Source: Phormidium tenue FACHB-886
Lineage (GTDB): Bacteria > Cyanobacteriota > Cyanobacteriia > Elainellales > Elainellaceae
Length of the DNA: 37,922 nucleotides
Direction of reading: 5' to 3'
Assembly (NCBI RefSeq): GCF_014764505.1
Contig: NZ_JACXWX010000044.1
Coordinates: 1-37,922, forward strand
Of the stretch, positions 6,660-21,958 are shown one piece after another; the stretch's first letter is position 1; each line of letters opens with the position of its first letter. Position numbers and translations under genes: made by a program. The notes below the pieces were generated by a model that was given only the letters and a program-made list of their open reading frames with translations, was not told where the DNA came from and made no database searches.

Positions 6660-7190
6660 TTACCTTGGTGGGTAGCCAATTTTGCCCCAAATTCGTTGCT
6701 CACAAACTGTCTTGGTTGCCCTCGCCGCATGAGGATCAAAGCTTTGATCAGGGTTGTGCAGCACTGAATGCTGGCGCAATTGGGTGCAGTCCGCTTTAAG
6801 CCACCCCTGCCAGTCACCCAGCCACAGCCGCACCATCTTGTCAAAGCTGCCGCTAGCGATCGTCTTGCCGTCAGGGCTAAATTCTAGAGACCCGACAGTA
6901 TCTGTGTGTCCCTGAAGGAGTTGACCGATGGGCTGTCCCTGCAAATCCCACAACCGCACGGTTTTATCTGCATTGCCACAACCACTAGCGATCGTCTTGC
7001 CGTCGGGGCTAAATATCACAGACAAAACGGGAGCCATATGTCCCTGAAGAGGTTGACCGATAGGTTGCCTCTGCAAGTCCCACAACCGCACCATCTTGTC
7101 ATTGCTACCGCTACCGCTACCGCTCGTCTTGCCATCGAGGCTAAATGCTACAGAACTAACAGCATCTGTGTGTCCCTGGAAGGGTTGACA
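6660..7190 (-). pseudogene. WD40-repeat protein, C-terminal remnant
   Basis: Three WD40 blades are readable (GHTDAVSSVAFSLDGKT, GHMAPVLSVIFSPDGKT, GHTDTVGSLEFSPDGKT, each followed by VRLWDLQ or VRLW). A characteristic cyanobacterial tail follows (GDWQGWLKADCTQLRQHSVL). Full-length relatives carry seven to fourteen blades and often an N-terminal NACHT or kinase domain. Here everything before the first visible blade is missing, and the sequence changes abruptly at about 7190 into a transposase tail on the other strand. No proper start codon context exists, so this is a truncated gene. Confidence 0.85.
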
Positions 7191-7193
7191 ATA

Positions 7194-7304
7194 TTGCGAG
7201 CCCAAAATCGTTCAGTTTTAACTTATCTGGTTGTGGCATGCCGGGCTGCTCGGCAGGGTCAGCCTGTTCCATCCTTACTGCCTGCTGATACCTCTATCCC
7301 GTAA
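7194..7304 (+). pseudogene. IS66-type transposase C-terminal fragment
   Basis: The frame reads LRAQNRSVLTYLVVACRAAR followed by QGQPVPSLLP and stops at 7302-7304. This is the pattern of the extreme C-terminus of IS66-family transposases (RSVLDYL...G..APSLLP). Only about 36 residues remain, and the upstream junction coincides with the break in the WD40 gene. The family call rests on this short motif. Confidence 0.5.
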
Positions 7305-7330
7305 ACGATTACAAATATTTGAGCTGTCCA

Positions 7331-8023
7331 TTAACTATTTAATGCAGGCAAAATGATATTGATTAGTTGAGACGAGAGAAAAGCTGCACCAATACCACAT
7401 AGCACGAATCCAGCGGACTGGATTTTGGACGACATTTGGGAAGCATCCTTACGTCGTGATAGGACTTGACTAAGCATCATTACGCTGGTCGTAATTCCCA
7501 TTTGAATAGTGGTGAACCCTAGCAAATACGCAAGAAGGGGAGCCATAGAAGCGCCGAAAATCGCTTCGCCATAAGCAAACCCGTGACAGATACCAGCTAG
7601 CGCTGCCAAAGCCATAATCAGCAATGTGTTAGGGCTGTCTTTCAGCACTAGCAAAATGCCGAATAGCAGAACCGAGCCTGAAATCAATAATTCTGCTCCG
7701 GGCAAACCAACCCCCATCAGATGCAGCCCAGTGCCGACCATTGCAAATAACACAAACGAGATCGCAATTAAAATGCCCTGCCGTTTGGTGGCAGCTAGTA
7801 AGCCAACAGCCACAATAAAGGCAAAATGATCGACCCCAATCACGGGATGCGCCAACCCAGACAAAAAGCCTTCGATGAAGTTAGAGGGTGTTTTGCCGCC
7901 CATTGGGTGATGTGCTAGGGCAGGGGTGCTGATAAGCAGCATCAGCAAAACTGTGGTCAGTTGCAAAAATCGGGTTAGGTTGAACGTTCTCAAGGAGATA
8001 GAGCGAAGTAATTGTTGAGGCAT
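7331..8023 (-). CDS. HupE/UreJ family protein, putative cobalt/nickel permease
   Basis: The protein is 230 aa from ATG 8023; an in-frame TTG at 8071 would add 16 unlikely residues. It has a signal peptide ending in ALA before HHPMGGK, which leaves a histidine-rich N-terminus suited to metal capture. About six membrane helices follow, with the family motifs HPVIGVDHFAFIVAVGLL and GICHGFAYGEAI. HupE/UreJ members import Ni or Co for metalloenzymes. Here it is the last gene of the nitrile hydratase cluster, whose alpha subunit carries a cobalt-type motif, so Co uptake is the likely role (inference). It is separated from the accessory gene by about 50 bases. Confidence 0.87.
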   Translation of the reverse strand: MPQQLLRSISLRTFNLTRFLQLTTVLLMLLISTPALAHHPMGGKTPSNFIEGFLSGLAHPVIGVDHFAFIVAVGLLAATKRQGILIAISFVLFAMVGTGLHLMGVGLPGAELLISGSVLLFGILLVLKDSPNTLLIMALAALAGICHGFAYGEAIFGASMAPLLAYLLGFTTIQMGITTSVMMLSQVLSRRKDASQMSSKIQSAGFVLCGIGAAFLSSQLINIILPALNS

Positions 8024-8075
8024 AGTGCAAATTTTAGAGGGAGAAATAATGGGAACACAGAAGGTATTCAACAGA

Positions 8076-8429
8076 TCAAACCGACTGAGTTTCCTGAGCC
8101 AATAGTTCGGCGGTACGCTGATCTAGCTCGGCTGGATCCAGGAGGTTTGATTCCATGGCTAACCGCTCCAAAGCCAGCAACCAGCGCTGATAGTAATCCC
8201 ACTCAGGGTCATCCTTACAGTGGGTTGCTTCCCACTCCGCGATCGAGGCAATCAATCCCTGCCGAAAGTCCTCCCACTCATAATGTCCCTTCTTGGATAG
8301 CGCGATCGCCATCCCAAATGCGCGTCCTTCCCAGGGACGTTGAAATAACAACTCACCATTATCACGGGGTGGAGCATCTACACTGCCCAACATACTGGTG
8401 GCTGCAAACTGCTCAAATTTCACTTGCAT
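8076..8429 (-). CDS. Nitrile hydratase accessory protein (activator, beta-like)
   Basis: From ATG 8429 the product is 117 aa. Its core LLFQRPWEGRAFGMAIAL parallels VFVQPWEERIFGIHVAM in the beta subunit encoded two genes upstream, as expected because NHase accessory proteins are homologous to the N-terminal half of beta. The later part (WEDFRQGLIASIAEWE, YYQRWLLALERL) also follows the family. In cobalt enzymes this protein forms a complex with alpha and delivers metal by subunit swapping. A TTG-started extension to 8477 is unlikely. It lies about 90 bases after the alpha gene on the same strand. Confidence 0.9.
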   Translation of the reverse strand: MQVKFEQFAATSMLGSVDAPPRDNGELLFQRPWEGRAFGMAIALSKKGHYEWEDFRQGLIASIAEWEATHCKDDPEWDYYQRWLLALERLAMESNLLDPAELDQRTAELLAQETQSV

Positions 8430-8520
8430 AGTTGCATCCCAATCACTTACGAGAATGATGAATCTAATGAATACCATGAATACTGGGGTGAGTTTTATGT
8501 CCCCTCACCCGCTGCCAAGT

Positions 8521-9129
8521 TTAAGTAGGGATAACAACCTTTGCCGCACCTTGCATCGCTTCGGGTGTGACAATCGCAGCCAATTGCTCCTCTGTCCAGC
8601 CTTCCGTTCCAGCAGGACGTTCAGGAATGACAAACCAACGGATTTGAGCACTCGTATCCCAAACGGCAACCTGAGTAGATTCGGGAACCTCTAGCCCAAA
8701 CTCTTGCAAAACTTTTCGCGGTTCACGAATAGCTCTGGCTCGAAAGGTTGGGTCTTTAAACCAATAGGGAGGCAACCCTAAGACGGGCCACGGATAGCAA
8801 GAGCACATTGTGCAAACAATCAAGTTATGAACCTCTGGGGTATTTTCGACTGCCTTCATGTGTTCACCTTCCGCACCCGCCATACCACGGGGGAAATTCA
8901 TTTCTGCGATCGCTGAGGGAGTGTCTTCCAACAAGCGTTGCTTAAACGCCGGATCAACCCAGGCTTTAGCAACAATCTTGGCACCGTTAAACGGTCCCAT
9001 ATCTTTTTCAAAAAACTCAATCACCTTATCAATAGTTTCGCCAGCGATGATTCCCTTCTCAATCAAAAGGGATTCTAATGCTCGAACACGAGCTGCACTA
9101 TAGGTTTCACGATCGATATTTTCTGCCAT
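8521..9129 (-). CDS. nthA: Nitrile hydratase, alpha subunit (cobalt type)
   Basis: The 202-residue protein matches the usual alpha length. The metal-binding loop is VCTMCSCYPWPVLG, with Cys106, Cys109, Ser110 and Cys111. Threonine after the first cysteine marks the non-corrin cobalt class; iron enzymes have serine there. Two of the cysteines are normally oxidised to sulfenic and sulfinic acids. With beta it hydrates R-CN to the amide in the cytoplasm. ATG 9129 is 39 bases after the beta stop, so the two are cotranscribed. The downstream accessory gene and the CobW and HupE genes of the same cluster fit metal loading. Confidence 0.95.
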   Translation of the reverse strand: MAENIDRETYSAARVRALESLLIEKGIIAGETIDKVIEFFEKDMGPFNGAKIVAKAWVDPAFKQRLLEDTPSAIAEMNFPRGMAGAEGEHMKAVENTPEVHNLIVCTMCSCYPWPVLGLPPYWFKDPTFRARAIREPRKVLQEFGLEVPESTQVAVWDTSAQIRWFVIPERPAGTEGWTEEQLAAIVTPEAMQGAAKVVIPT

Positions 9130-9168
9130 ACTGTCGTTTCCTCAATCCATGCAATGCCTACCCAGCGA

Positions 9169-9888
9169 TTAAGCAGGGTCTTCTAAATACCCTTCAAAAA
9201 TTTGCACATAAATCCACGTCTTTGGTTCGGTCAGGTTACTCCAAATATTGTGGGAATCAAACTTTACGTTATAGATGGGCATTGGGTCGCCCACCCCATC
9301 GCCTGTTGGAAAGTAGTAGTTGTACATCCCTTCATAGACCTCGTCTATCACACCTTGCTTCGTCCGGAGATAACCTGGCAACTTGCAATGTGCTACAGGT
9401 GGGGGATTTTTGACTGTCACCACATCCCCTACTTTAAATTTCGGTGGAACTGCTACATCGACCTTTGGGGAGTCTCCTACGCGCAAATACTCCATTACCT
9501 GCTCATCGATCGCGGGGTCTCCACCCTTTGGTAAGGGAGCTGCTGGGTTTTCTAAATATGCCGTCGTTTTAGCATCTAATTCCTCTGAGGATACGTATCC
9601 CGATTCCACGAAGAAACCAGAAATACCGCCCAACCATTTCTCGTAATAGCGATATTTGAAATAATCAAATGGATTTAAACCTTCAGCGCCTTTGCGGAGG
9701 TGTCCCCAGGTCCAGAAACTCTTGAACTGGGTGGGCACTGTCTTGACGGCTTCTAAATGATTACTCAAGCCCATCATGGCAACGTGAATTCCAAAGATTC
9801 GCTCCTCCCAAGGCTGGACAAAGACACGCTTTTCAAAACTAGATGGCTTCAGTCCTTCCAAACCACCGATATAGTGCTGTAGTTTCAT
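9169..9888 (-). CDS. nthB: Nitrile hydratase, beta subunit
   Basis: The 239-aa protein begins MKLQHYIGGLEGL, a family hallmark, with the helical N-terminal region (FVQPWEERIFGIHVAMMGL) and the SH3-like C-terminal barrel (FKVGDVVTVKNPPPVAHCKLPGYLR, IYNVKFDSHNIW). Beta packs against the metal loop of alpha and contributes arginines that hold the oxidised cysteines. Order here is beta, alpha, accessory, as in many cobalt NHase operons. ATG 9888 is the clear start. About 55 bases separate it from the DUF1097-like gene upstream. Confidence 0.95.
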   Translation of the reverse strand: MKLQHYIGGLEGLKPSSFEKRVFVQPWEERIFGIHVAMMGLSNHLEAVKTVPTQFKSFWTWGHLRKGAEGLNPFDYFKYRYYEKWLGGISGFFVESGYVSSEELDAKTTAYLENPAAPLPKGGDPAIDEQVMEYLRVGDSPKVDVAVPPKFKVGDVVTVKNPPPVAHCKLPGYLRTKQGVIDEVYEGMYNYYFPTGDGVGDPMPIYNVKFDSHNIWSNLTEPKTWIYVQIFEGYLEDPA

Positions 9889-9943
9889 TCACTCACCTCA
9901 TTTAACCAAATCAAACATGGATACTCTTAATGGCGTGATCGCT

Positions 9944-10459
9944 TCAGACGCGGGTGCGTTCTCTCATAGAAGTTTGCTCCTGAGTCATAGCATCACCCCA
10001 CATTTCTGACAAATAGCCAAACACATTGCCCAATATCATTGCCGCTGCAGCAACCAAGGCAGGATTGTCTAACCCTGGCGCGGTAATGGGGTTGCCTGTT
10101 GCAATAGTAGTACCAACGGTAGAAGCAAACCCCCAGACAATTGCTGGCACCGCACTGAGTAGAGGAATCTTAGAGACTTGTACCATCGCAGCACTGCCCA
10201 ACCCAACACAAATTGCAGCGACCAAAGGATTGGCATTTAGTAAGGCAATGCTTAACAGGGTGAGAGAGGCGATCGCAACTCCTGTCAGGTTAGAGGCAAT
10301 ACTTTGCTTCAGTCCTGAAGACTTACCACCCAGTATAAAGAACGATGCCCAGGCAATAAATGTGACCCATACAGGAACAAGAATCAACGTAGCTGTGAGA
10401 TAAGTATCAACTGCACCTAAAACTCCAATGCTGATACTATAAGCATCTAACTTTCTCAT
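9944..10459 (-). CDS. DUF1097-like integral membrane protein
   Basis: The 171-aa product is almost entirely hydrophobic, with about five or six membrane helices rich in small residues (AAICVGLGSAAMV, VAAAAMILGNVFGYLSEMWGD), consistent with the DUF1097/YcdZ group of inner-membrane proteins, whose function is not established. It sits inside the NHase operon between the CobW GTPase and beta, about 55 bases from each. A role in nitrile, amide or metal movement is plausible, but inferred from position only. The family name is moderately certain. Confidence 0.65.
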   Translation of the reverse strand: MRKLDAYSISIGVLGAVDTYLTATLILVPVWVTFIAWASFFILGGKSSGLKQSIASNLTGVAIASLTLLSIALLNANPLVAAICVGLGSAAMVQVSKIPLLSAVPAIVWGFASTVGTTIATGNPITAPGLDNPALVAAAAMILGNVFGYLSEMWGDAMTQEQTSMRERTRV

Positions 10460-10515
10460 TAGAGAAACTCCCTTTGAGGAATGGAAATTTAATATTTAGA
10501 AACTTTGCAGATCAC

Positions 10516-11475
10516 TTAAACCAAGCAAGACTGAAACCCTGCTTTCAAAACTGCTTCGGGAAGATTGCGACCGATAAAAACCATCTCATTTCGACGATTT
10601 TCATGCGGCTTCCAAGGTTTTCCGGGTCTGCCGTCCAAAAGCATATGAACTCCCTGAAGCACAAACCGCCGATCCTCATCGTCGACATTCAAAATGCCCT
10701 TCATTCGAAAGAGATTCTGTCCTTGTGCCTGTACGAGTTGATTTAGCCAGGTGGTGAGCTTGTCACTACTAACAGACCCTGTTTCCACAATCGAGATAGA
10801 CGTCACCGTTTCATCATGTTCGTGGGCATCTTCACTTAGAAATTGGGGATCGATCGACAAGGCATTTTTCAAGTCAAAAGCTTTCACGCCTAAAATTGCA
10901 CCAATCTCCAACTCACAATTCTGAGTCCGGTGGATTTTTGCGATCGCGTTAGCGGCTCGAATTCGTTTCTCTAAAACGTCTGCTTGCTCTGAAGAAACGA
11001 GATCCATTTTGTTGAGAAGAATTACATCGGCGAAGGCAACTTGTTCCTGAGCCTCACTGCTATCCCAGTGGTCCCAAATATGTTTTGCATCGACTACCGT
11101 CACAACGGCATCTAGCTCTGTTTTTGAATGCATTGCCTCATCAACAAAGAAAGATTGAATTACAGGTGCTGGATCTGCTAAACCCGTGGTTTCAATGACT
11201 AAATGATCAAACTTTTCCTGCCTCTCCAAAAGATTACCAATGATCCGAATTAAATCACCTCTCACCGTGCAACAGATACAACCATTATTCATTTCCAAAA
11301 TTTCTTCATCAGCATTCATCACAAGCTGACCATCAATTCCGACATCGCCAAACTCATTAACAATCACGGCAACTTTTTTGCCATGCTCAAACGTCAAAAT
11401 GCGATTAAGTAGTGTGGTCTTTCCAGACCCCAAATAGCCGGTAATGACAGTAACAGGAATCGCGCGACTGATCAT
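10516..11475 (-). CDS. CobW/G3E-family GTPase, metallochaperone
   Basis: The 319-residue protein has Walker A GYLGSGKT (13-20), the metal-binding CxCC motif GCICCTVR (Cys66, Cys68, Cys69), Walker B region [10 protein letters not shown], and the guanine-specificity motif NKMD (155-158). A histidine/acid patch (EDAHEHDE) and the C-terminal CobW domain ([11 protein letters not shown]...RFVLQGVH) follow. G3E GTPases load metals into target enzymes; in the NHase setting the partner is most likely the cobalt enzyme encoded just downstream. ATG 11475 is right for the domain. The 237 bases upstream separate it from the deacetylase gene and could hold its own promoter. Confidence 0.92.
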
Positions 11476-11712
11476 ATTATTAAAGAGCCAATTGATAAAT
11501 AAAGTTAATCAATCTAGTGAAGAGCTGCATCTATTCATTGCATTAACTCACAAGTCAAAATGTATTAATTAAGACAATTACAGGATTAGGGTAAACGCAG
11601 CTACAACGAGGCGGAAAAGGGTGTAGGATGGGGAGATTCCCTTTGCGGTTGTGTCGATTGGCTAAGGAATTAAGCTCTGATTCAAACAGCCTTTTGAAGT
11701 AACTCCAGGTTC

Positions 11713-12579
11713 TCAAGCAGACTTGATATAAGCCGCCACGTTTTCACAGGTTGCCCACCAGACATCATCAAATGTTTTCATGTACTCAAACAGCCGATAA
11801 AGCATATTCAGCCGTCCCGGTCTGCCTAACAAGTTGGGGTGAAAAGTTGTAGTAAATAGCCCGCCAAACCGCCGCATGCCATCAAATTCCTCTTTCCAAA
11901 TCTGAAATGCAGATTCAGCAGTGGCATTGACCCCACCGCCCGGAAACGGTCCTGCTCCAAAAATCTGCCAGTCATCCAATATCATGCTGATCGGCAGTTC
12001 TATGAGCGTTCCAGCATTGGTTTTCAACCAATAGGGCGTATCATACTCCATTAAGCTACAGTCGTAGATCATACCTAGTTCACACAGTAGCTCAAGCGTG
12101 CTCAGTTTGACTCCCCACCCTGGAGCGCTCCATCCTACAGGGGCTTTCCCTATAATCTGCTCTATCGACTTTGTTCCTTGAATGAAAATTTCTCTCTGCT
12201 CAGCTTTGCTCAAGAAGAAGCAGTTCTCATGCAGATATCCATGATGTGCAACTTCATGTCCTGCACTGGCGATCGCTTCAACCATATCTGGGTGCAGATC
12301 AGCGACATAGCCGGGAATGAAGAAAGAGCCTGGAATCTCTAAGCTACGGTGCATCTCCAAGATACGAGGAAGCGCTGTGGAAACGCCATACGCCCCTTCT
12401 GATAAAGCCGCCAGATGATCAGCTGCACGGGGATCGCCAGCAATTGCGCCTGCTTCTCCGTCAATATGCCAGCTGATAGAGACCACACATTTCTGGTTTT
12501 GTGGACCTTGAAAGCCAGGAATTGAAGTAACTTCAAAGGTATTGAGTAGCAAATCAGGATTAGAATGTTGCTGGATCAC
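11713..12579 (-). CDS. Polysaccharide deacetylase-family (NodB/PuuE-like) hydrolase
   Basis: The 288-aa protein has the NodB barrel features: an early metal-site acid in SISWHIDGE, then SFFIPGYVADLHPDMV, and the metal histidines in HEVAHHGYLHEN (about 130-141). SAPGWG comes later, with a C-terminal TTTFHPNLLGRPGR histidine. The order resembles PuuE/HpPgdA-type enzymes, which act on small C-N substrates such as allantoin or on peptidoglycan, rather than chitin deacetylases. There is no signal peptide, so it is cytoplasmic. Its place between the regulator and the NHase genes makes a small-molecule amide or imide substrate attractive, but that is inference. Confidence 0.82.
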   Translation of the reverse strand: MIQQHSNPDLLLNTFEVTSIPGFQGPQNQKCVVSISWHIDGEAGAIAGDPRAADHLAALSEGAYGVSTALPRILEMHRSLEIPGSFFIPGYVADLHPDMVEAIASAGHEVAHHGYLHENCFFLSKAEQREIFIQGTKSIEQIIGKAPVGWSAPGWGVKLSTLELLCELGMIYDCSLMEYDTPYWLKTNAGTLIELPISMILDDWQIFGAGPFPGGGVNATAESAFQIWKEEFDGMRRFGGLFTTTFHPNLLGRPGRLNMLYRLFEYMKTFDDVWWATCENVAAYIKSA

Positions 12580-12629
12580 GTATCCCTCACTTACATATTT
12601 CTAAAGTTCAGCAGGTTAATCTTGTCAAC

Positions 12630-13301
12630 CTATAAATTTTTCAAGACACTCGCTAATTCCTTCTCGTACCAGATCGTGTGATAGAACATTAAATCCTCTG
12701 CCTTAGCTACATCTCGCTGCTTCAGCGCCTGCAAAATGTCCCAGTGCTGCTGGGCAGAAGTTTCTACTGGCACAATTGCATGATGCCAAATAATCGGTCG
12801 AATCCGGTCAGTGTGCTCCTGAAGCTGCTGAATTTGCGCTTTCAGCTTGCGGTTGCCAACTATGTCAAACAAATAAGTATGGAATGCGTCACCCAACTCT
12901 CGTGCTTGGTCGTCTTCCTGATTAGCAATTGCCTGATCGGCTTGGATCAGCAGAGCTTCCATTGCCTGGAAGTCGGTGTCTTTCAGAAGAGGGGTTGCGC
13001 GCCTCACTACGTATCCCTCCAGCGCTGCTTGAACTTCTATTACCTCCAAAATCACCTTGGCTGAAGGGACAGTCACTTTCGCACCACGCCGTCCGTCGCT
13101 TTCAACCCACCCCTCGCGCTCTAGCATGATCAACGCTTCTCGAACCGGCGTTCGGCTAACTCCATACTCTTTGGCAATATCGCCGATAACGAGATAATCA
13201 CGCGGTTTAATTTCTAAAGACAAAATCCCTTGCTTGAGCGTATTAAAAACTCTTTCTGTTAAGGAGTATTCCTCGTTATCAATTAGCTCCGGAAACGGCA
13301 T
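12630..13301 (-). CDS. GntR-family regulator, FadR/FCD subgroup
   Basis: The 223-residue protein has an N-terminal winged helix (about 12-75; IGDIAKEYGVSRTPVREALIMLEREGWV is the recognition region) and a helical C-terminal FCD domain with metal/ligand histidines and acids (ELGDAFHTYLFD, AQQHWDILQALKQRD). FCD regulators usually repress catabolic or transport operons and release DNA when a carboxylate-like ligand binds. It lies within the cluster between the hydrolase and permease genes, so it is most likely the local regulator. A TGTAT-N4-ATACA palindrome upstream of the first cluster gene is a candidate site. Confidence 0.92.
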   Translation of the reverse strand: MPFPELIDNEEYSLTERVFNTLKQGILSLEIKPRDYLVIGDIAKEYGVSRTPVREALIMLEREGWVESDGRRGAKVTVPSAKVILEVIEVQAALEGYVVRRATPLLKDTDFQAMEALLIQADQAIANQEDDQARELGDAFHTYLFDIVGNRKLKAQIQQLQEHTDRIRPIIWHHAIVPVETSAQQHWDILQALKQRDVAKAEDLMFYHTIWYEKELASVLKNL

Positions 13302-13345
13302 GAGTTCATCAGATTGATTTCAAGAAAACAAATTAGTGATGATGG

Positions 13346-14083
13346 TTAGCGAATGATTTGATGCATTGCACTTGTCTTCCTGGCTAACGGCTGGGACGCA
13401 TTGAAGGAGAACACTTTGTTCTCTAAATAAGATGAAATCTTAGTCAATACTCCAACAATGATTAAATATAACACTGCCACTTGAATGAGGATCTCTGCAA
13501 ATACAAAGTTCTCAAAAATCAGCGCGTTGCCCACCTTGGTCAATTCATTGACAGAAATTACAGAAAGTAGAGAGGATGCTTTCACCACGTTAGCTAATTC
13601 ATTGGTCAATGCGGGTATCATCCGCTTCGCCGCCTGAGGAAATAGAATTTGCATTAGTACCATTGGTTCATCCATACCAATGGCAAGAGCAGCTTCCCGT
13701 TGTCCGCGATCGACTGACTCAATTGCTGCCCGCACAATTTCTACCTGATAGCCAGCTGCAATAATCGTCAAAGCAATTACACCGGTCCAGAACTCGTTTA
13801 ACCGTAACCCAAATGAAGGCAACGCAAAGTAGATAAAAGCGATAATTAACAGAGGTGGAACACCGCGTACAAAGTCAACCCATCCTTGAATCATCGATTT
13901 GATAACAGATGGTCCTAGCACTCGCAAACCCCCCAGCAGAAACCCTACGCTGGTTCCTAGAAGCATTGCTAAACAGCTAATTTGAATGGTGACACCTGCT
14001 GCCTGTAGAATCTCTGGAAGAGTTTGCCACATAAAAGCAGTGTCAAAGGCGAGTAATGCGGTTTGCATAGGTTGAACTAGCAC
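13346..14083 (-). CDS. ABC transporter permease, polar amino acid type (second of two)
   Basis: The 245-aa membrane protein has the HisMQ/GlnP architecture: five predicted helices, ILQAAGVTIQISCLAMLLG at the start, RGVPPLLIIAFIYFALPSFG, and the EAA loop QREAALAIGMDEPMVLMQILFPQA that contacts the ATPase. It is paralogous to the permease at 14902-15603, and the two probably form a heterodimer. The ATG is at 14083, about 18 bases after the ATPase stop. The substrate cannot be deduced from the permease alone. Confidence 0.92.
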   Translation of the reverse strand: MLVQPMQTALLAFDTAFMWQTLPEILQAAGVTIQISCLAMLLGTSVGFLLGGLRVLGPSVIKSMIQGWVDFVRGVPPLLIIAFIYFALPSFGLRLNEFWTGVIALTIIAAGYQVEIVRAAIESVDRGQREAALAIGMDEPMVLMQILFPQAAKRMIPALTNELANVVKASSLLSVISVNELTKVGNALIFENFVFAEILIQVAVLYLIIVGVLTKISSYLENKVFSFNASQPLARKTSAMHQIIR

Positions 14084-14101
14084 AGCAATTAAAAGACAAG
14101 T

Positions 14102-14860
14102 TTAGAGAACATAGCTGAGAAACTTTCGAGTTTTGCGGCTACGTGGGCGTGTGAAGAAGACTTCTGTTGCACCCACTTCTATGATTCTGCCTTGCTCCAT
14201 GAAAACAACTCGATCGGCAACCCGTTGAGCAAAAGGAATTTCGTGCGTCACAATTAACATAGTCATTCCATCTTCGGCAAGTTCCTGCATCACCTGTAAT
14301 ACTTCATGCGTTAAGCAGGGATCGAGAGCTGAAGTTGGTTCATCAAATAGCATGAGTTTAGGATTCATTGCTAAGGCACGGGCGATCGCTACTCGCTGTT
14401 GCTCTCCTCCAGAGAGTTGCCAGGGAAACTTGTCGGCATGATGCCTCAGATGTACTTTATCTAATAGATCTCGTGCTAGCTCGTAGCAAATACCTTTAGG
14501 CTTCTTCAGCACTTTTTGAGGACCGATCGCAATATTGTCTAGCACCCTTAGATGTGAGAACAAATGGAAGCCTTGAAATACCATGCCAACTTCACGCCGC
14601 TGCCTTGCAACTTGACTAGAGGAAGCCGTGATCCAGCGTCTTTGCTTGTCAAAATGTCCCCCCATCGGTCGTCCATCTAGCCATACCGTACCTTGATTTG
14701 GAGCTTCCAAATAATTGATACAACGCAAAAGCGTGCTTTTACCAGATCCGGATGCACCTAGAAAGACCACCTGTTCTCCCGCAGCGATCTCTAAGTTAAT
14801 ATCAATTAGCGCTGCAGTTTTTTCATAGTTTTTATAAAGGTTCTCGATCTTGAGTAACAT
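14102..14860 (-). CDS. ABC transporter ATP-binding protein, polar amino acid type
   Basis: The 252-residue ATPase has all motifs intact: Walker [10 protein letters not shown] (about 35-43), Q-loop MVFQGFHLF, signature [15 protein letters not shown], Walker [14 protein letters not shown] and H-loop VTHEIPFA. The short insert around [15 protein letters not shown] between Walker A and the Q-loop is slightly longer than in GlnQ. It lies between the two permease genes with short spacers, so the importer genes are one transcription unit. Confidence 0.94.
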
Positions 14861-14901
14861 AGCGTTGTTTGAGAATGAATTAGTAAATATTTATTTGTGC
14901 T

Positions 14902-15603
14902 TTAACCAGATGGATTAGATAGCGAAGATACGGGAACCAACTCATTTCCAAAATTGAAAACCTTATCTTCTAGATATTTTGCCCCCAGGCACAGTGTTTG
15001 GATAATTGCAAAGTACAACACTGATAAGACCAGCAAAACTTCAGCAAATTTGAAAGTAGCGGCAATAATTGCATCACCTGCTTTAGTCAGTTCAAACAAA
15101 GAAATCACTGACAATACAGAAGACGCTTTGACCAAGTTGGCAAGCTCATTTGCTAAAGGCGGAATCATACGACGAGCAGCTTGCGGTAGAACGATCCATA
15201 CCATTGTCATTCGATTGGTCATACCAATCGAAGCGGCAGCTTCGTGTTGTCCACGGCTGATGGAGGTGATTGCCGCTCGCACAATTTCAATTTGATAGCC
15301 AGCTGAGTTGAACGTCAGCGCTACCACACCAACCCAAAATACATCTAATTTCATCCCCAGCTTGGGAAGTACGAAGAATGCCGTATAGATTTGTATAATG
15401 ATGGGCGTGCCCCGGACGATCCAAACGTAGGCATTGAGCAGTACACGGAGGAAACTGCGGGCAGAACTCAGGACCCATATCATACCCAAGCTGACCCCGA
15501 TTAGCGTTCCCAGCAGCAGTGAAAGCAAGCTAACTGCCAGAGTAATCCATAAAGGCTGAATTAACCTTGGAGCTATGTCAAAAATAAAATTAATATCTAG
15601 CAC
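14902..15603 (-). CDS. ABC transporter permease, polar amino acid type (first of two)
   Basis: The 233-aa HisMQ-type permease shows RGTPIIIQIYTAFFVLPKLG and the coupling loop QHEAAASIGMTNRMTMVWIVLPQAARRMIPPL, closely parallel to the second permease. About five membrane helices are expected. ATG 15603 follows the binding-protein stop by 36 bases. Pairs of non-identical permeases are normal in amino-acid importers. Confidence 0.93.
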   Translation of the reverse strand: MLDINFIFDIAPRLIQPLWITLAVSLLSLLLGTLIGVSLGMIWVLSSARSFLRVLLNAYVWIVRGTPIIIQIYTAFFVLPKLGMKLDVFWVGVVALTFNSAGYQIEIVRAAITSISRGQHEAAASIGMTNRMTMVWIVLPQAARRMIPPLANELANLVKASSVLSVISLFELTKAGDAIIAATFKFAEVLLVLSVLYFAIIQTLCLGAKYLEDKVFNFGNELVPVSSLSNPSG

Positions 15604-15639
15604 CTTGAATTTCTATCCTGTGAGTTGAATCAAGTGTTC

Positions 15640-16554
15640 CTACCAGTTTGGTGCATCTTTAGGCAAATCTTTGAACGCTTGACCAAACCATTTAGTCTGC
15701 AGCTCATAGAGCGATCCATCAGTTTGCATTGCCAGAATTGCTTGATTGAAGCCATTTCGTAAGTCTTCGTCTTCTTTGCGAAATGCCGCACAGGTGTACT
15801 CAGCCTTCCAGCGCTCTGACTTAAAAGGAATGACTTCAAATCCAGGATTGGTTTTGGTAAACTCCAGCATACTCACGACTGAACTGGCGTAGGCATCAAT
15901 CCGTTTGCTTCGCAGTGCCTCTAGCCCTGCCGTGTCATCTGGAAAGGTTTTGATGGTTTCAGCGTACTGGATCTGCAATTCTTCCTGAGTCACTTCGAGC
16001 TGCTTGATGGAAGGAGTTCCCGCTTTTGTGCCAACAATTCTGCTATTAAGGTCTTTGCGGTCAGCAATTCCCTCACCTGCTCGCACCAGCAGTCCTGAAC
16101 TGGCGTCCATATAGGGAATAGAAAAGTTGACTCGCTTGTAGCGCTCCTCAGTTGCCGTCATGCCACCGAGAATCATATCGAACCCACCATCATAGAGAGT
16201 CTGAATCACGGTTGCCCAGTTTGTTGGAGTTGGGCGAGCTTCCACACCCCACTGCTTGCCTATTGCGGCAGCAAGGTCAATATCATAGCCGATCAGTTTG
16301 TTGCTTTCGTCGTAAAACTCGAACGGGCGATAGCCAGCTTCCAAGCCATAGGATAAATAGCCCCGTTGCTTGATAGTCTGAAGTAGCCCACCGGGTGAAC
16401 TTTGAGCCGCCGGAGAAGCTGGAGAAGCTTCGTTGGTGGTTGAATTTGTACAGGCAGCGAGGATACTTGTACCAACAGCCATCGCGCCGTACTTAATGAA
16501 TTTACGGCGGCTCGCACCATAAAATTCTAGTTGAGGGTAACGTAGATTACTCAT
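15640..16554 (-). CDS. Extracellular solute-binding protein family 3, Tat-type lipoprotein
   Basis: The 304-residue protein begins with a twin-arginine leader (SRRKFIKYGAMAVGTSILAAC) whose lipobox cysteine is residue 35, so it should be a folded, lipid-anchored periplasmic protein. The mature part is a family 3 binding protein: YGLEAGYRPFEFYDESNKLIGYDIDLAAAIG, DMILGGMTATEERYKRVNFSIPYMD, VGTKAGTPSIKQL. It presents the ligand to the permeases encoded directly downstream. The family binds amino acids and related small polar compounds; a cyano- or amide-substituted ligand is conjectural. Confidence 0.93.
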   Translation of the reverse strand: MSNLRYPQLEFYGASRRKFIKYGAMAVGTSILAACTNSTTNEASPASPAAQSSPGGLLQTIKQRGYLSYGLEAGYRPFEFYDESNKLIGYDIDLAAAIGKQWGVEARPTPTNWATVIQTLYDGGFDMILGGMTATEERYKRVNFSIPYMDASSGLLVRAGEGIADRKDLNSRIVGTKAGTPSIKQLEVTQEELQIQYAETIKTFPDDTAGLEALRSKRIDAYASSVVSMLEFTKTNPGFEVIPFKSERWKAEYTCAAFRKEDEDLRNGFNQAILAMQTDGSLYELQTKWFGQAFKDLPKDAPNW

Positions 16555-16589
16555 CTTAGATCTCCTATCTGTTTAAAGGTAGTCAAAAA

Positions 16590-17495
16590 TTAACTGTATA
16601 GCTGTTCCATAAACTGATTCGTCATCACGTCCTCCGCTTGCAAAGATCGGTTGATGATTTGGTAATCTTCTAAATAGCGAATGCTTTTATCCCAGCGTTC
16701 TGTGGTCATCCAGCCCAGCTTTTCCATCCCAACTCTACCCAGAAATAGTGGATTTAAGGCAGTAATAATTTCTTCCTGCATCTTGGAATTAGATTCACCT
16801 AGATATTTATCTACGATGATTTGAGCTGTTTCTTTCGGATGGCTAAATGCATAGCGCCAGCCCTCAAAGGTGATTTTAAGGAACTGCTTGAGTGTTTCAG
16901 GTTCAGCTTTGATTAAGCGATCGGTAGTAGCAATCACCTGAGAATACACCTCGTAGCCCCACTCATAAGCAGGCATAACATGAAGATCAAAGCCTTCTGC
17001 TGCTAGCTCCAATGGCTCTACCATAACAAGGCACTGCACAGCGTCAAACTCGTTGCTTCGCAGTAGATCAGCATAATCAAATCCAACCTCGACAACCTCA
17101 ACATCCCGGTTGGTTAATCCAAATTGCTTGAGCGTAATATTGAGACCCGTCTCGCCATCCCCATGAATGCCGACTCGTTTTCCCTTGAAATCAGCAATGC
17201 TGCTAATTTTAGAAGACTTCAACGCCATCCAACCCAGTCCCGAATACTGCATCATCGTGGCGATCGCTTTGACAGGCTGCCCTGCCACCCGCCCTCGAAT
17301 TAGTAAGTTATCTTCTGTGCTGACAAGGTAGTTTCCATCCTGCTGCAAGATATCCACCTGGTTAAGATAGGGTTGCCAGGGATGAATATCTAAATCAATT
17401 CCTTGGTCGGCATACCTGTTTAAATGATGTGCGATTAAGATGCCAGCAAATTGAGCGTTGGGTTTCCAGTCCAACTGAAGAGAAAGTGAAACCAT
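16590..17495 (-). CDS. NMT1/THI5-like substrate-binding protein without signal peptide
   Basis: The 301-aa protein has the NMT1/THI5 fold signature: LQLDWKPNAQFAGILIAHHL at the start, RYADQGIDLDIHPW, then FKGKRVGIHGDGETGL and the EPLELAAEGFD region. Such proteins normally bind thiamin-pyrimidine precursors, sulfonates or nitrate for an SsuBC-like transporter. No export signal precedes the domain from ATG 17495, and the upstream in-frame sequence does not supply one. No cognate SsuC-type permease lies in the window. It is the first gene of the minus-strand cluster. It could be cytoplasmic, or an orphan component. Confidence 0.85.
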   Translation of the reverse strand: MVSLSLQLDWKPNAQFAGILIAHHLNRYADQGIDLDIHPWQPYLNQVDILQQDGNYLVSTEDNLLIRGRVAGQPVKAIATMMQYSGLGWMALKSSKISSIADFKGKRVGIHGDGETGLNITLKQFGLTNRDVEVVEVGFDYADLLRSNEFDAVQCLVMVEPLELAAEGFDLHVMPAYEWGYEVYSQVIATTDRLIKAEPETLKQFLKITFEGWRYAFSHPKETAQIIVDKYLGESNSKMQEEIITALNPLFLGRVGMEKLGWMTTERWDKSIRYLEDYQIINRSLQAEDVMTNQFMEQLYS

Positions 17496-17738
17496 AAATT
17501 CTTTGCTTGATTGTGAGCTGAAAAGCGTAACTAAGCGAATAAAAATTCGCTCAATTGCTGTAAACCATGAAATCCTAAAGCATACTTATGGCGCTGTCTA
17601 AACTGGCTAAATTGCACAGGATAAAGCACCTCGAGAGGCATTTCCCTCTGAACCTTGCTAACTTACAGCCTGCAAAGTTCAACAAGTTTCGAACATATAT
17701 TGATTGATATATTCTAAAAGGACTCACATTCTAAGCTG

Positions 17739-17752
17739 TGTATCTGAATACA
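17739..17752. promoter_or_regulatory. TGTAT-N4-ATACA palindrome, candidate GntR/FCD operator
   Basis: The inverted repeat tgtat-ctga-ataca has perfect 5 bp arms and lies about 245 bases upstream of the first cluster gene, within the divergent region. FadR/VanR-type regulators bind short palindromes of this kind (T-G-T/A-C-A cores), and a GntR/FCD regulator is encoded in the same cluster. I saw no second copy in front of the other cluster genes, so the link is tentative. Confidence 0.35.
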
Positions 17753-17973
17753 TTTAATTAGTTTAAATTGGCTTTAATACTATGTCTTTGTGGAGCTGCA
17801 CTAAACTTAATTAGCTCAGAGAAACTTTCATGTCCTTACCAGCACGGACTCATGCAAGATCAGTATAAGTAAACAGCTATGATTAGTTGAAAAAAGCAGC
17901 CTAGTAGGCGTTCGAGTATCCTCAACCTTCGTCAATTTAAAGCACTATGTAGCAGGCGTGGAATCCTGTAGAG

Positions 17974-18111
17974 TCATATAGTTTTTGCTTGAGTGGGGAT
18001 TTGAGTTGCTTCCAGGGTTCGCTGTGCTTTATCCTGCAAGGCATGTTGTTCTGGAGCTATAGAACAATCCAGTGAGAGTGAATATAAAGTTACCCTTTCG
18101 GTAATACTCAT
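17974..18111 (-). CDS. Possible 45-aa ORF
   Basis: ATG 18111 opens 45 codons (MSITERVTLYSLSLDCSIAP is its start) ending at TGA 17976-17974. The composition looks protein-like, with a helical second half, but I recognise no family and see no strong ribosome-binding site. It would be oriented with the nitrile cluster, 480 bases upstream of its first gene. It may be a chance frame or a remnant. Confidence 0.2.
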   Translation of the reverse strand: MSITERVTLYSLSLDCSIAPEQHALQDKAQRTLEATQIPTQAKTI

Positions 18112-18199
18112 TCGTATCACACGTATCGCAAGCCACAAAATTGCGATCGTGGTTTCAGTAGGGTGAAGTCAGTTCATCGAAACCGCGGGGGTAGCAGCG

Positions 18200-18769
18200 A
18201 TGGCACGTCGAAAAGGAAATCAGGTCTTTAGCATTGTCTTTGCAGTAATTTGGGGTGTGATCACGGGTGTGTTGTGGGCATACGCCAACCCCATTCAGCT
18301 TGTTCCGGGTGTCATTCAGTGGCGCATTTTTGCGTTTCTACCGCCCGTCATTGGTATTTTGTTTGGTCCTATTTCTGGTTTTATCTCCGGTTATCTCGGC
18401 TCTGTGGTTTGGGGTTTACTGGCGGGCACATTCATTCCCGCCCATACTCTGCTGGTAGACGGCATTATGGTCGGCGTGACAGGTTTGGTTCCAGCACTCA
18501 CAACCGGACGTAAATTTACGCTAGAGCAGATAGTAACTAGTGGACGTGCCATGACTCACGCCATGATCACCGCTGGCATCACGACGGTGATCATGGTGTT
18601 TGCAGTCTGTGCCAGTCTGGCTGTACTCGGTATCTTTCCATTTTGGTGGGCGGTGTTGTGGATTGGGCTATCTGACATCATTCCAGTTTTGATCGGGACG
18701 CCGCTGGTGATGAGATATGGAGCACGCGTCCTTCAGTCGGCAACTTGGCTACCCACGCAGCGCATCTAA
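18200..18769 (+). CDS. ECF transporter S component (substrate-specific)
   Basis: The 189-aa protein has about six membrane helices, beginning FSIVFAVIWGVITGVLWAYA and including a typical S-component glycine-rich core (GILFGPISGFISGYLGSVVWGLLAG). It is translated just before the ATPase and T genes (spacing 3 bases), so the substrate is defined by this gene. The fused double ATPase recalls the YkoEDC thiamin-pyrimidine system and the trailing phosphoribosyltransferase suggests a nucleobase; I cannot choose from sequence alone. ATG 18200 is preceded by the purine-rich gcgggggtagcagcg. Confidence 0.82.
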   Translation: MARRKGNQVFSIVFAVIWGVITGVLWAYANPIQLVPGVIQWRIFAFLPPVIGILFGPISGFISGYLGSVVWGLLAGTFIPAHTLLVDGIMVGVTGLVPALTTGRKFTLEQIVTSGRAMTHAMITAGITTVIMVFAVCASLAVLGIFPFWWAVLWIGLSDIIPVLIGTPLVMRYGARVLQSATWLPTQRI

Positions 18770-18772
18770 GGT

Positions 18773-20479
18773 ATGGGCATTATTGAAGCCCATCGGCTGT
18801 GCTATACCTACCCTAAAGCGGCTTGCCCCGTTCTGCAAGATCTTTGCTTCTCGATCACCCCTGGCACGGTCACCGCATTGTTGGGCTGTAGCGGTTCGGG
18901 CAAATCTACCCTGCTGCTGGCATTAGCTGGTATCATCCCGGAGTTTTATGGTGGCACTTGGTCAGGTCGATTGCAGGTGGGGCACGCTGTCGTGACCGCC
19001 GAGGAACCGCAGTCAGCTGAAGTAATTGAGCAGGTGGCAATCGTGCTGCAAGTGCCCGATACGCAGTTAGTTGGCTTTCGCGTCGAAGAAACGATCGCCT
19101 TTGGGCTAGAAAATCAGGGCATGCCGACCGCGCAGATTCGCGAACGGATTTCTCAATCGTTGGAGGAACTGGGGATTACTCACTTGCGCCACCGCCTTAC
19201 TGACACACTCTCCGGTGGTCAGAAGCAGGCTTGCGTGTTGGCAGCGATGCTGGCACTTGATACGCCCGTGATTGTCCTGGATGAACCTACCGCTGCCCTC
19301 GATCCTGCCGGCAGGGTGCTCGTCAGCCGCATTGTCGATCGCCTCAAGCAGCTTGGCAAGACGTTAGTAATTAGTGATCAAAATCTAGACTGGTTTGCAC
19401 CTCTGGTCGATTGTACCCTAGTACTCGATAGCACAGGCAGTCTGCTATTCAACGGCACCTTGAGCCATTTTTTGAGCGATCGAGACCTGGTGCTTCGATC
19501 AGGCGTACCAATTCCGCCGCTTACCGCCATCGTATACGAGCTGCAGCGCCTGGGACATCAGGTACAGCCGTGGGTCACAATTGCTGACGCGCGTACCTGG
19601 CTTAGCCAGCATCCGCGTCATGTGCCGTTTCAGCTGTCACCACCATCCTTTAGCCCCTCGGTTGACAACATTGTCCATTGCACCAATCTGACTTACACCT
19701 ATGCGGGTACAAAGACTCCGGCGATCATGGAAGCCAGCTTTACGGCTGATGCTGGACGCATCTTGGGCATCATTGGGCAGAATGGCTCCGGTAAATCGAC
19801 AGCGATTCGGCATCTCAACGGGCTCCTCAAACCCCAGCGCGGAACAGTTGTGGTGGCTGGGCAATCGACCGCACAACTGACAGTGGCACAGCTGGCGCGG
19901 CTGGTCGGTATTGCCTTTCAAAATCCTGATTTAATGCTGTTTAACGAAACGGTCGAGCAGGAGGTGTTTTTCGCCTTGAATCTATCCTCAGACAAGGCCT
20001 GGCAGGTGCAGCAGCGGGCACAGATGATGGCGATCCTTGAGCAATTTAATCTTGCCCAGCACTTAGGACGATCGCCGCTGGCACTTTCGGTCGGTGAAAA
20101 GCAGCTTTTAGCGATTCTTTGTGCGTTGGCGCTGAATCCGGCCGTCCTGGTTCTCGACGAACCAACTTCTGGCATGGATCGAGCGGGACGCGAGCAACTC
20201 GGGCAACTGCTGTTGCAACTCAAACAGCAAGGAAAAGCGGTAATTTGTGTTGCTCACGACCTACCGTTGCTAGCAGAATTTGCGGACGATATCTTGGTGT
20301 TTCAGGCTGGACGGGTTGTTTGCTCTCGCCCAACTCGGGACCTATTCGCTGATACAGAACTGTTCGAGCGCCTTGGCATTCCCTTACCAATTGAGATTCA
20401 GCTGGCGCTCGAGTTCCTTGGGTTTCCCTGCCTTACCCCTGCTGAGTTTACCAATCGCTTTATGACTGCTGCTGTTTAA
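18773..20479 (+). CDS. ECF transporter ATPase with two fused ABC domains
   Basis: The 568-residue protein carries two complete ATPase halves. The first (about 1-230) has Walker A GCSGSGKST, signature LSGGQKQACVLAAML and Walker B VIVLDEPTAALDP. The second (about 300-540) has Walker A GQNGSGKST, Q-loop AFQNPDLMLF, an unusual signature LSVGEKQLLAIL and Walker B VLVLDEPTSGMD. In most ECF systems these are separate EcfA and EcfA' proteins; fusion occurs in some dedicated modules. It energises uptake through the adjacent S and T proteins. Start ATG 18773 follows the S stop by 3 bases. Confidence 0.93.
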   Translation: MGIIEAHRLCYTYPKAACPVLQDLCFSITPGTVTALLGCSGSGKSTLLLALAGIIPEFYGGTWSGRLQVGHAVVTAEEPQSAEVIEQVAIVLQVPDTQLVGFRVEETIAFGLENQGMPTAQIRERISQSLEELGITHLRHRLTDTLSGGQKQACVLAAMLALDTPVIVLDEPTAALDPAGRVLVSRIVDRLKQLGKTLVISDQNLDWFAPLVDCTLVLDSTGSLLFNGTLSHFLSDRDLVLRSGVPIPPLTAIVYELQRLGHQVQPWVTIADARTWLSQHPRHVPFQLSPPSFSPSVDNIVHCTNLTYTYAGTKTPAIMEASFTADAGRILGIIGQNGSGKSTAIRHLNGLLKPQRGTVVVAGQSTAQLTVAQLARLVGIAFQNPDLMLFNETVEQEVFFALNLSSDKAWQVQQRAQMMAILEQFNLAQHLGRSPLALSVGEKQLLAILCALALNPAVLVLDEPTSGMDRAGREQLGQLLLQLKQQGKAVICVAHDLPLLAEFADDILVFQAGRVVCSRPTRDLFADTELFERLGIPLPIEIQLALEFLGFPCLTPAEFTNRFMTAAV

Positions 20480-20480
20480 T

Positions 20481-21254
20481 ATGCCTCGTCTTCTGAGCTA
20501 TACACCCCGCCCTTCTCCCGTTCATGCGCTTGATCCGCGCACCAAGCTACTCTGGATTGTGCTGTGCAGCTTGCTCGCCTGGTATCTTCGCAGCCCGCTG
20601 CCGCTGCTGGTGTTGCTGCTAGGTGTGGTGCTGTACTGGGTAATCGGTCAGGTTGCCGACCAAGGTTTGCGTTTCGTACTTGCCATCTCGCCGATGTTAA
20701 TTGCCTCCTTTGTCATGTGGAATTTAATTGGTGATCGTGGCGGCACTGTGCTGTGGAGTTTAGGGACATTCCAGTTCACTGACTTGAACCTGGCTTTAGC
20801 GACTGCGGCAGTTGCTCGCATTCTGGTGATGTCTGGGTCATTTTATGCACTGCTGGTTACCACAGAGTTTGGCTCTATGATTGCGGGGTTAAGTCGATTG
20901 CGGGTCCCCTACTCAATTGCGTTTGGCGTGGGGCTAACGCTGCAACTGCTGCCGTTGATTATCCAGGAGTTCTCGAACATCCTGGACGCTCAGCGCAGTC
21001 GTGGACACGAACTTGATCGCGGGGGATTGGGCGAGCGAATTCGGAAATACTTGGCGATTGCGGTTCCCTTGCTGTTGCGATCGCTGCGGTTGGGACAGAA
21101 CCTCTCGTTCGCGCTGCTTACCTATCGCTTCGGCAGCAGTTCGCACCGGACAAGCCTGCATGTGCTGAAATTTCGGTTGGGAGACTATAGCTTCATGGTG
21201 CTGTGTTTGGTCTTGACGATTGGGCTGGTAATTTGGCAGGAGGCACTGAGATAA
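20481..21254 (+). CDS. ECF transporter transmembrane (T) component, CbiQ/EcfT family
   Basis: The 257-aa membrane protein begins with the T-component motif SPVHALDPRTKLLWIVLCSL and has about five helices. A cytoplasmic coupling region contains the family's short Ala-Arg-Gly-like motifs (LDAQRSRGHELDRGG, about 170-186), which insert into the ATPase halves. It starts 1 base after the ATPase stop, so translation is coupled. With its neighbours it makes a complete dedicated ECF transporter. Confidence 0.92.
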   Translation: MPRLLSYTPRPSPVHALDPRTKLLWIVLCSLLAWYLRSPLPLLVLLLGVVLYWVIGQVADQGLRFVLAISPMLIASFVMWNLIGDRGGTVLWSLGTFQFTDLNLALATAAVARILVMSGSFYALLVTTEFGSMIAGLSRLRVPYSIAFGVGLTLQLLPLIIQEFSNILDAQRSRGHELDRGGLGERIRKYLAIAVPLLLRSLRLGQNLSFALLTYRFGSSSHRTSLHVLKFRLGDYSFMVLCLVLTIGLVIWQEALR

Positions 21255-21256
21255 GC

Positions 21257-21958
21257 ATGGCAACACAGCGACCATATCGAGCCAGATTGATTCCTAAGGG
21301 TGAATTACTGCCCGCCTTAGAGCCACCCTACAATGATACCTATCCGGTCTTACTACAAGATGGAAGCTGTCTGGAACTACCGCTCCAGCCTTTCTCAGAC
21401 GGTCAAGTGGCGATCGCCTTATTAATGTCGAATCAAACCTCTTTCGTAGTGGAACAAGGGCTAGCTCCCCTGCTAGGCAAGCTAGCAGCTGCCTTTGCTC
21501 CCCAAGCGATCGTGGGCATCCCGACTTTGGGACTAGATTATGCGCGACTCGTTGCCCAGCAGTTGCAGCTACCGCACTACACGGCTCTCGGCAACTCGCG
21601 CAAGTTTTGGTACGAGGATGCCCTCTCGGTGCCGGTGGAGTCGATTACCAGCCCTGGCGTTACCAAGCGACTCTATCTTGATCCCGGTCTAGTCGATCGC
21701 GTCGCAGGTAAACGCACGGTGATTGTGGACGACGTGATTAACACGGGTGGAACAGCATCGGCAGCAATTCAATTGCTACGGCAAGCCAGGGCAGAGGTAG
21801 TGGGCTTGGTCGTTGTATTGACAGAAGGACATGACTGGAAAATGCGACTGCAGGCGATCACGTTTGACTGGCAGGATGCCCTTCAAGCGGTGGGACATAT
21901 TCCGCTGTTTCAACGGACCGAAGCGGGATGGATACCGATTGCTGAAACCTTGGACTAA
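21257..21958 (+). CDS. Phosphoribosyltransferase family protein
   Basis: The 233-residue cytoplasmic enzyme has the PRPP-binding loop VIVDDVINTGGTASAA (about 153-168) and an upstream GIPTLGLDYARLVAQQL pyrophosphate-loop region, as in adenine/xanthine-type type I PRTases. It would convert an incoming base and PRPP into a nucleotide. ATG 21257 is 2 bases after the T-component stop; an upstream start at 21203 would overlap that gene by 50 bases and lacks family sequence. Its place in the ECF operon suggests that the transported compound is a base trapped by phosphoribosylation (inference). Confidence 0.88.
   Translation: MATQRPYRARLIPKGELLPALEPPYNDTYPVLLQDGSCLELPLQPFSDGQVAIALLMSNQTSFVVEQGLAPLLGKLAAAFAPQAIVGIPTLGLDYARLVAQQLQLPHYTALGNSRKFWYEDALSVPVESITSPGVTKRLYLDPGLVDRVAGKRTVIVDDVINTGGTASAAIQLLRQARAEVVGLVVVLTEGHDWKMRLQAITFDWQDALQAVGHIPLFQRTEAGWIPIAETLD

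Follow-up and report, generated by a model that had tools for sequence, protein, structure and literature searches.

Do thirteen genes that run in one direction around a nitrile hydratase (NHase) make up one pathway, or have two separate gene sets become neighbors? The question is raised by positions 7331-17495 of contig NZ_JACXWX010000044.1 (C195) from the cyanobacterium Phormidium tenue FACHB-886, a single contig of 37,922 nucleotides (hereafter the window) in an 8.93 Mb draft genome of 255 contigs with an estimated contamination of 3.54% (GCF_014764505.1). The minus strand of this segment carries 13 open reading frames, all of them intact, and the gaps between them are 4-56 bases long with the exception of 237 bases between cobW, which encodes a COG0523/CobW-like GTPase, and puuE, which encodes a PuuE-like hydrolase. 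We refer to the six genes on the cobW side as module A and to the seven on the puuE side as module B. A first-pass annotation, made from the sequence alone, had read all thirteen as a self-contained import and hydration route for a nitrile or cyano-amino compound. Its gene content, gene order and frames are confirmed and its family names agree with our profile matches; its single route is not borne out, and we think it very likely that two independent co-directional modules, an NHase core (A) and an uptake-and-hydrolysis operon (B), came to lie head to tail at this site. The features are listed below, with profile scores and, after 'cut-off', the score required.

7331-8071, minus strand: HupE/UreJ permease, predicted cobalt/nickel uptake, module A (Pfam PF04955, 138.7 bits, cut-off 23)
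8076-8477, minus strand: NHase accessory protein, the cobalt-type (Co-type) activator, module A (TIGR03889, 77.9 bits, cut-off 46)
8521-9129, minus strand: nthA, NHase alpha subunit, metal loop VCTMCSC, module A (TIGR01323, 303.2, cut-off 249.85)
9169-9888, minus strand: nthB, NHase beta subunit, module A (TIGR03888, 205, cut-off 152.2)
9944-10459, minus strand: DUF1097 membrane protein, modeled with six long helices, module A (PF06496, 120.4 bits)
10516-11475, minus strand: cobW, COG0523/CobW-like GTPase with a CICC motif, module A (PF02492 and PF07683, CobW_C)
11476-11712, no strand: junction between the modules, 237 bases (BLASTN, matched in none of 14 loci compared)
11713-12579, minus strand: puuE, PuuE-like hydrolase of the polysaccharide-deacetylase fold, module B (PF01522; relatives 3rxz, 3qbu and 3cl6)
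12630-13301, minus strand: gntR, GntR/FCD regulator, module B (PF00392 and PF07729)
13346-14083, minus strand: ATP-binding cassette (ABC) permease, amino-acid type, module B (PF00528, HEQRo_perm_3TM)
14102-14860, minus strand: ABC ATPase, amino-acid type, module B (PF00005, GlnQ-like)
14902-15603, minus strand: ABC permease, module B (PF00528)
15640-16554, minus strand: family 3 solute-binding protein (SBP_bac_3), module B (PF00497; aligned with five solved chains and two relatives)
16590-17495, minus strand: nmt1, NMT1/THI5-like protein with no evident signal peptide, module B (PF09084; nearest solved structures 4nmy and 3ix1)

Module B is found without an NHase. Two other genomes, G306 and G324 (loci L151 and L152), carry the same seven genes in the same order at 65-78% identity (in the genome search, puuE matched at 79% and 73% and nmt1 at 70% and 67%, respectively), with a Pot-type importer inserted between gntR and puuE in G306; unlike the window's genome, neither of these (100% and 99% complete) yields an nthA match at E ≤ 1e-20. 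Module A is also found alone, nthA being present without module B in G300, G302, G317 and G318, the last of which has a PuuE-like gene (42%) on another contig. Among the 36 genomes of the window's own order, all belonging to one family, NHase with module A occurs in five and module B in three, and the two occur together only in the window's genome; the search for co-occurrence in cyanobacteria that the first-pass annotation had suggested thus returns a single case in this order. One refuting condition named by that annotation, homologous NHase loci devoid of the importer and regulator, largely applies: 46 GTPase-linked loci besides the window offer 9 kb or more of sequence upstream of nthA, and genes of module B (at least 80-100 bits) are found in none of them. 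Across 292 genomes sampled from the phylum (two from the window's own family), there is no other puuE match above 30% identity over most of its length, and shorter local matches reach 40%.

The boundary between the modules coincides closely with the gap. When the surrounding sequence was compared with 14 loci by BLASTN, two (G306 and G324) matched the puuE side only, up to about 25 bases from the end of puuE, and 12 NHase loci matched the cobW side only, from the start of cobW or shortly after it, one 20-base chance match aside; the 237 bases themselves were matched in none.

The content of module B offers clues to its substrate. The importer is of the PAAT type, with one PF00497 binding protein, two PF00528 permeases and one PF00005 ATPase; among the matches listed (for the ATPase, 25 of 189), no substrate-specific NCBIfam cut-off is reached by the first permease, the ATPase or the binding protein. 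The hydrolase matches the PuuE structure 3cl6 at an E-value of 3.5e-28, and its assignment as a PuuE allantoinase was rejected with a TIGR03212 score of 87.8 (cut-off 424.6). The binding protein retains the Arg of the GMTxTxER motif, but its residue at the position of Asp in the five aligned solved chains is Ser225; the G306 and G324 proteins also have Ser at this position, so that all three B modules agree. In binding proteins of the glutamine-/LAO- and histidine-types this Asp binds the alpha-amine, and its replacement by Ser therefore counts against a cyano-amino acid, including the beta-cyanoalanine put forward earlier as a candidate substrate. The NMT1-like proteins of the window, L151 and L152 all begin directly at the fold, which would allow a cytosolic role; 3ix1, a near solved relative, is a formylaminopyrimidine binder. 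PuuE-like matches occur in 599 plasmid records, of which eight were examined; an amidase or amidohydrolase is present in six and a urea carboxylase-associated protein in five; none of the eight has an annotated NHase within 8 kb of the PuuE-like gene, and in an Aminobacter plasmid locus an Ehu-type importer adjoins the hydrolase. Tentatively, we suggest that the substrate is a small carboxylate-bearing nitrogen compound in which an amide or ureide bond is cleaved, and probably not an ordinary alpha-amino acid. Module B, a putative transcription unit, would be a GntR/FCD-regulated operon for the uptake and hydrolysis of such a compound, and its PuuE-like enzyme would cut the amide- or ureide-type bond.

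The alternative that survives best is a single pathway: a nitrile or cyano-amino compound would enter through module B and be hydrated by module A. Several observations favor it and weigh against two independent modules. The 13 genes are co-directional with mostly short gaps, and the modules agree in G+C content (GC; 0.464 for A and 0.458 for B) and in GC at third codon positions (GC3; 0.452 and 0.453, as compared with 0.537 for nine flanking genes), as if they had arrived or adapted together; one transcript could be shared by both. A Binatota metagenome-assembled genome (L071:237-2851) has a PuuE-like gene (35%) directly upstream of nthB-nthA-activator. A few proteobacterial loci have distant amino-acid-type importer genes (26-34% identity, the ATPase 43-46%) no more than 10 kb from nthA: L032 has a permease, an ATPase and a binding protein, L028 has permeases and an ATPase, L044 has an ATPase and a binding protein, and L057, L062 and L063 have a binding protein. 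GntR-like genes (27-28%) are near nthA in L020 and L063, and importers of another family adjoin NHases in cyanobacterial genomes and on a plasmid of Klebsiella, as described below. The co-occurrence of A and B in the order has an odds ratio of 3.6 (Fisher p = 0.37), a weak test with one double-positive genome that leaves room for an association. Against a common pathway stand the presence of module B in G306 and G324, where no NHase was detected, the absence of module B from 46 of 46 comparable module A loci, and the Ser at the alpha-amine Asp position in all three B modules, which argues against an alpha-amino nitrile; we regard this alternative as improbable. An assembly error that joins two unrelated stretches in the gap is more doubtful still, for although the draft consists of 255 contigs, of which the window is one, with some estimated contamination, and the join is seen in none of the loci compared, the composition of the two halves agrees and the closest relatives of both are cyanobacterial (for B within the same family, for A Leptolyngbya sp. 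Prado105 and strain CCP2).

Under the reading of two independent modules, module A (7331-11475) is a conserved cobalt-type NHase core whose enzyme function is predicted. In addition to the profile matches listed above, the best solved relatives of nthA are cobalt NHases. Its CTMCSC loop, confirmed by reading of the sequence, fits the Co-type motif CT-x-CSC given in PMC2770081, where the iron-type (Fe-type) motif is CSLCSC, and the Leu-to-Met variant is common to L016-L019. The earlier call of a cobalt-type NHase with an activator and linked metal-supply genes is supported. A thiocyanate hydrolase was considered and rejected, with the gamma-subunit profile TIGR03887 scoring 182.3 (cut-off 291.45) and the beta subunit being one full-length chain rather than split. 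A full-length NHase alpha subunit is present in four of the 292 phylum genomes (seven give some match at E ≤ 1e-3) and in five of the 36 genomes of the window's order, so that the description 'unusual for a cyanobacterium' is only partly apt.

The DUF1097 protein was modeled with AlphaFold2 (mean predicted local distance difference test score, 89.4). Foldseek returned no match in the PDB with E ≤ 0.001; the best VIA-align Z score is 9.8, to AtALMT1 (root-mean-square deviation 5.6, 161 aligned, 9% identity), and a Z score of 7.3 was obtained to a subunit of a sodium-pumping NADH-quinone oxidoreductase. These likenesses appear to reflect a common arrangement for helical membrane proteins, and we treat them as a lead only. 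Nearly full-length amidase matches number 13 in the genome and none on this contig. In the mechanism that we propose, HupE would import Co2+, the COG0523 GTPase would buffer or hand over cobalt, the activator would insert it into the alpha subunit, and DUF1097 would be a membrane partner; the alpha-beta NHase would convert a nitrile to an amide, and amidases encoded elsewhere in the genome could complete nitrile breakdown. HupE is linked to cobalt in cyanobacteria in a review (PMC4284471).

The conservation of module A was examined in 86 loci with close relatives of nthA: 79 from the best 80 of 552 confirmed, the window, two plasmid loci (L160 and L161), and four further loci (L012, L014, L155 and L156). 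Left out of the count were two duplicates (L153 of L017, L154 of L083), further copies in the same locus such as L013, a distant NHase from G014 (L015), and those matches from the 292-genome search that were partial or fell on leader peptides. Fractions of the 86 hold for close nthA relatives rather than for all NHases, and the permease, amidase and importer counts, obtained with one query each and bit-score limits, are lower bounds. A GTPase gene lies within 4.5 kb of nthA in 64 of the 86 loci, and all 64 have the activator and 46 have DUF1097. The loop is of the Co-type CT[LM]CSC form in 63 of these 64 (58 CTLCSC, and five CTMCSC in the window and L016-L019) and CSLCSC in one. Most of the 22 loci that lack the GTPase are more distant (alpha identity no higher than 65%; the lowest with a GTPase is 64%). 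The cobW-nthB-nthA-activator set recurs in cyanobacteria, in alpha-, beta- and gammaproteobacteria, in Paenibacillus and in Nitrospira; DUF1097 often joins it, and the order of cobW and DUF1097 is sometimes swapped. Within 7 kb of nthA, HupE is found in at least 14, NicO in at least nine, and CbtA in at least nine of the 86 loci, and at least one of the three in at least 30 of the 64 GTPase-linked loci. A GlxA-type AraC regulator is nearby in 34 of the 86, mostly proteobacterial by their titles.

Some individual loci depart from this pattern. In L056 (Cf. Phormidesmis sp. LEGE 11477), a GTPase-linked and otherwise similar set, the alpha subunit (near 10001) carries CSLCSC, the Fe-type loop. 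L083/L154 and L013 each contain a second NHase-like set in which two short genes encode the beta-like halves, and Elainella has a COG0523 gene (47% identity to that of the window) near a second NHase-like set.

The GTPase of module A has both CobW domains (PF02492 and PF07683) and the CxCC motif in the form CICC, which places it in COG0523. Other identities were tried and rejected: CobW of cobalamin synthesis (TIGR02475, 215.3 against 332.1), with a context of NHase rather than cobN genes; the ZigA zinc metallochaperone (NF038288, 200.2 against 600); and YjiA, whose cut-off is missed. A tree sets the window GTPase apart from a cobN-linked CobW, and it groups with other NHase-linked GTPases. 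In a first tree (71 rows), the 64 NHase-linked rows need two changes, with one long-branch plasmid row inside; in a second (44 rows; 32 NHase-linked rows kept, seven plasmid outgroups added, and L128, L161 and L140 omitted), they need one change, with a support of 51/87. Both trees omit L095 (a copy of the window) and L166 and contain few non-NHase rows and several long branches; they agree with co-inheritance of GTPase and NHase, short of proving a clade.

This association bears on how the metal reaches the enzyme. Haas et al. 2009 (PMC2770081) restrict the COG0523 protein Nha3 to Fe-type NHases and assign a different accessory protein to the Co-type; reviews (PMC2770081, PMC9164220) likewise tie COG0523 to the iron type and describe cobalt types as seemingly not needing a GTPase. 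As with Nha3/P47K in the Fe-type systems they describe, a CxCC COG0523 GTPase is encoded with the NHase of module A; here, however, loop and activator are both of the Co-type, with frequent linkage to cobalt permeases. An Nha3/P47K role as Fe-NHase activator by linkage was rejected on the Co-type loop of the window and of 63 of 64 linked loci, and the six plasmid NHase loci examined are all Co-type. The published Fe-only picture does not accommodate the 63 loci in which a COG0523 GTPase accompanies a Co-type loop and activator; among the papers listed by literature searches, which covered few subscription papers, no title concerns this combination. Whether these loci represent a third route to the NHase metal center, a widespread cobalt clade with a Co-type activator, a dedicated and co-inherited COG0523 GTPase and a DUF1097 partner, is in our judgment evenly balanced. 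Caution about dependence on the GTPase may come from PMC7321127, which reports NHases, among them those of Rhizobium leguminosarum, Tardiphaga robiniae and Variovorax, expressed in Escherichia coli from two subunits and an activator, with 0.1 mM cobalt (1 mM for R. leguminosarum), though not uniformly well; these NHases may or may not be GTPase-linked in their hosts. It comes also from the Gloeocapsopsis dulcis plasmid (L161:6190-7929), where the GTPase gene appears truncated (266 amino acids) beside an IS5 transposase, and the GTPase may be dispensable there.

Known and newly compared systems share parts of this arrangement. Plasmid locus L170 of Rhodococcus rhodochrous BX2, which we take to be of the nhlBA-nhlE-nhlF type, resembles module A in its beta-alpha-activator order and adjacent nickel/cobalt transporter (loop VCTLCSC); unlike module A, it has no COG0523 GTPase or DUF1097 annotated in 9.6 kb, and has an ArsR-type regulator and an amidase. 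The plasmids of Gloeocapsa sp. PCC 7428 and Gloeocapsopsis dulcis (L160, L161) have the same cobW-nthB-nthA-activator core at 71-87% identity; unlike in the window, amidases flank it, and no DUF1097, HupE or module B was found.

Import and hydration in one locus, as the first-pass annotation had imagined, are better matched by a different cassette. In L042, L054, L056, L059, L064 and L089 (L089:552-6156), all cyanobacterial, the region upstream of module A contains an importer of the SsuA/TauA type, an isochorismatase resembling biuret hydrolase and a further set of NHase-like genes; an SsuA-like protein is found in at least seven and an isochorismatase hydrolase in at least eight of the 86 loci. 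Klebsiella plasmid NZ_CP056226.1 (L168:1252-6217) has a single run of genes for an importer, an NHase, its activator and an isochorismatase, with identities to L089 of 59% (binding protein), 51% (permease), 52% (ATPase), 44% (hydrolase) and 58.5% (alpha subunit). The importer of the window is instead of the amino-acid type, and no isochorismatase-type amidase lies beside its NHase. The SsuA/TauA cassette is plausibly a complete route for nitrile uptake and breakdown, and the import-hydration idea fits it better than it fits the window.

Signals and neighbors of the two modules were also recorded. In scans of 7000-18400, neither the promoter predictions (13, shuffle mean 16.8) nor the terminator predictions (five, shuffle mean 10.5) exceed those of shuffled sequence. 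No Rfam family reaches its gathering score in the window, and therefore no known riboswitch accounts for control of these genes. Divergent from module B is an energy-coupling factor (ECF)-type transporter operon (18200-21958, plus strand) with a 189-amino-acid protein lacking any Pfam or NCBIfam match, a double ATPase and a CbiQ-like T component, and then an overlapping phosphoribosyltransferase. A DDE-family transposase gene is located at 25795-26838 (minus strand), about 8 kb from module B.

The locus thus looks like an under-described kind of conserved cobalt NHase core beside an independent import operon, with the pairing a matter of neighborhood, and it cautions that one run of co-directional genes need not mean one pathway. 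DUF1097, an uncharacterized family, gains a recurrent gene partner (46 of 64 loci). For asking which metal an enzyme is given in the cell, NHase is a good case because its cobalt and iron forms are homologous; the conserved GTPase, together with alternative cobalt permeases (HupE, NicO and CbtA) and a Co-type loop, makes a role for COG0523 in cobalt delivery directly testable.

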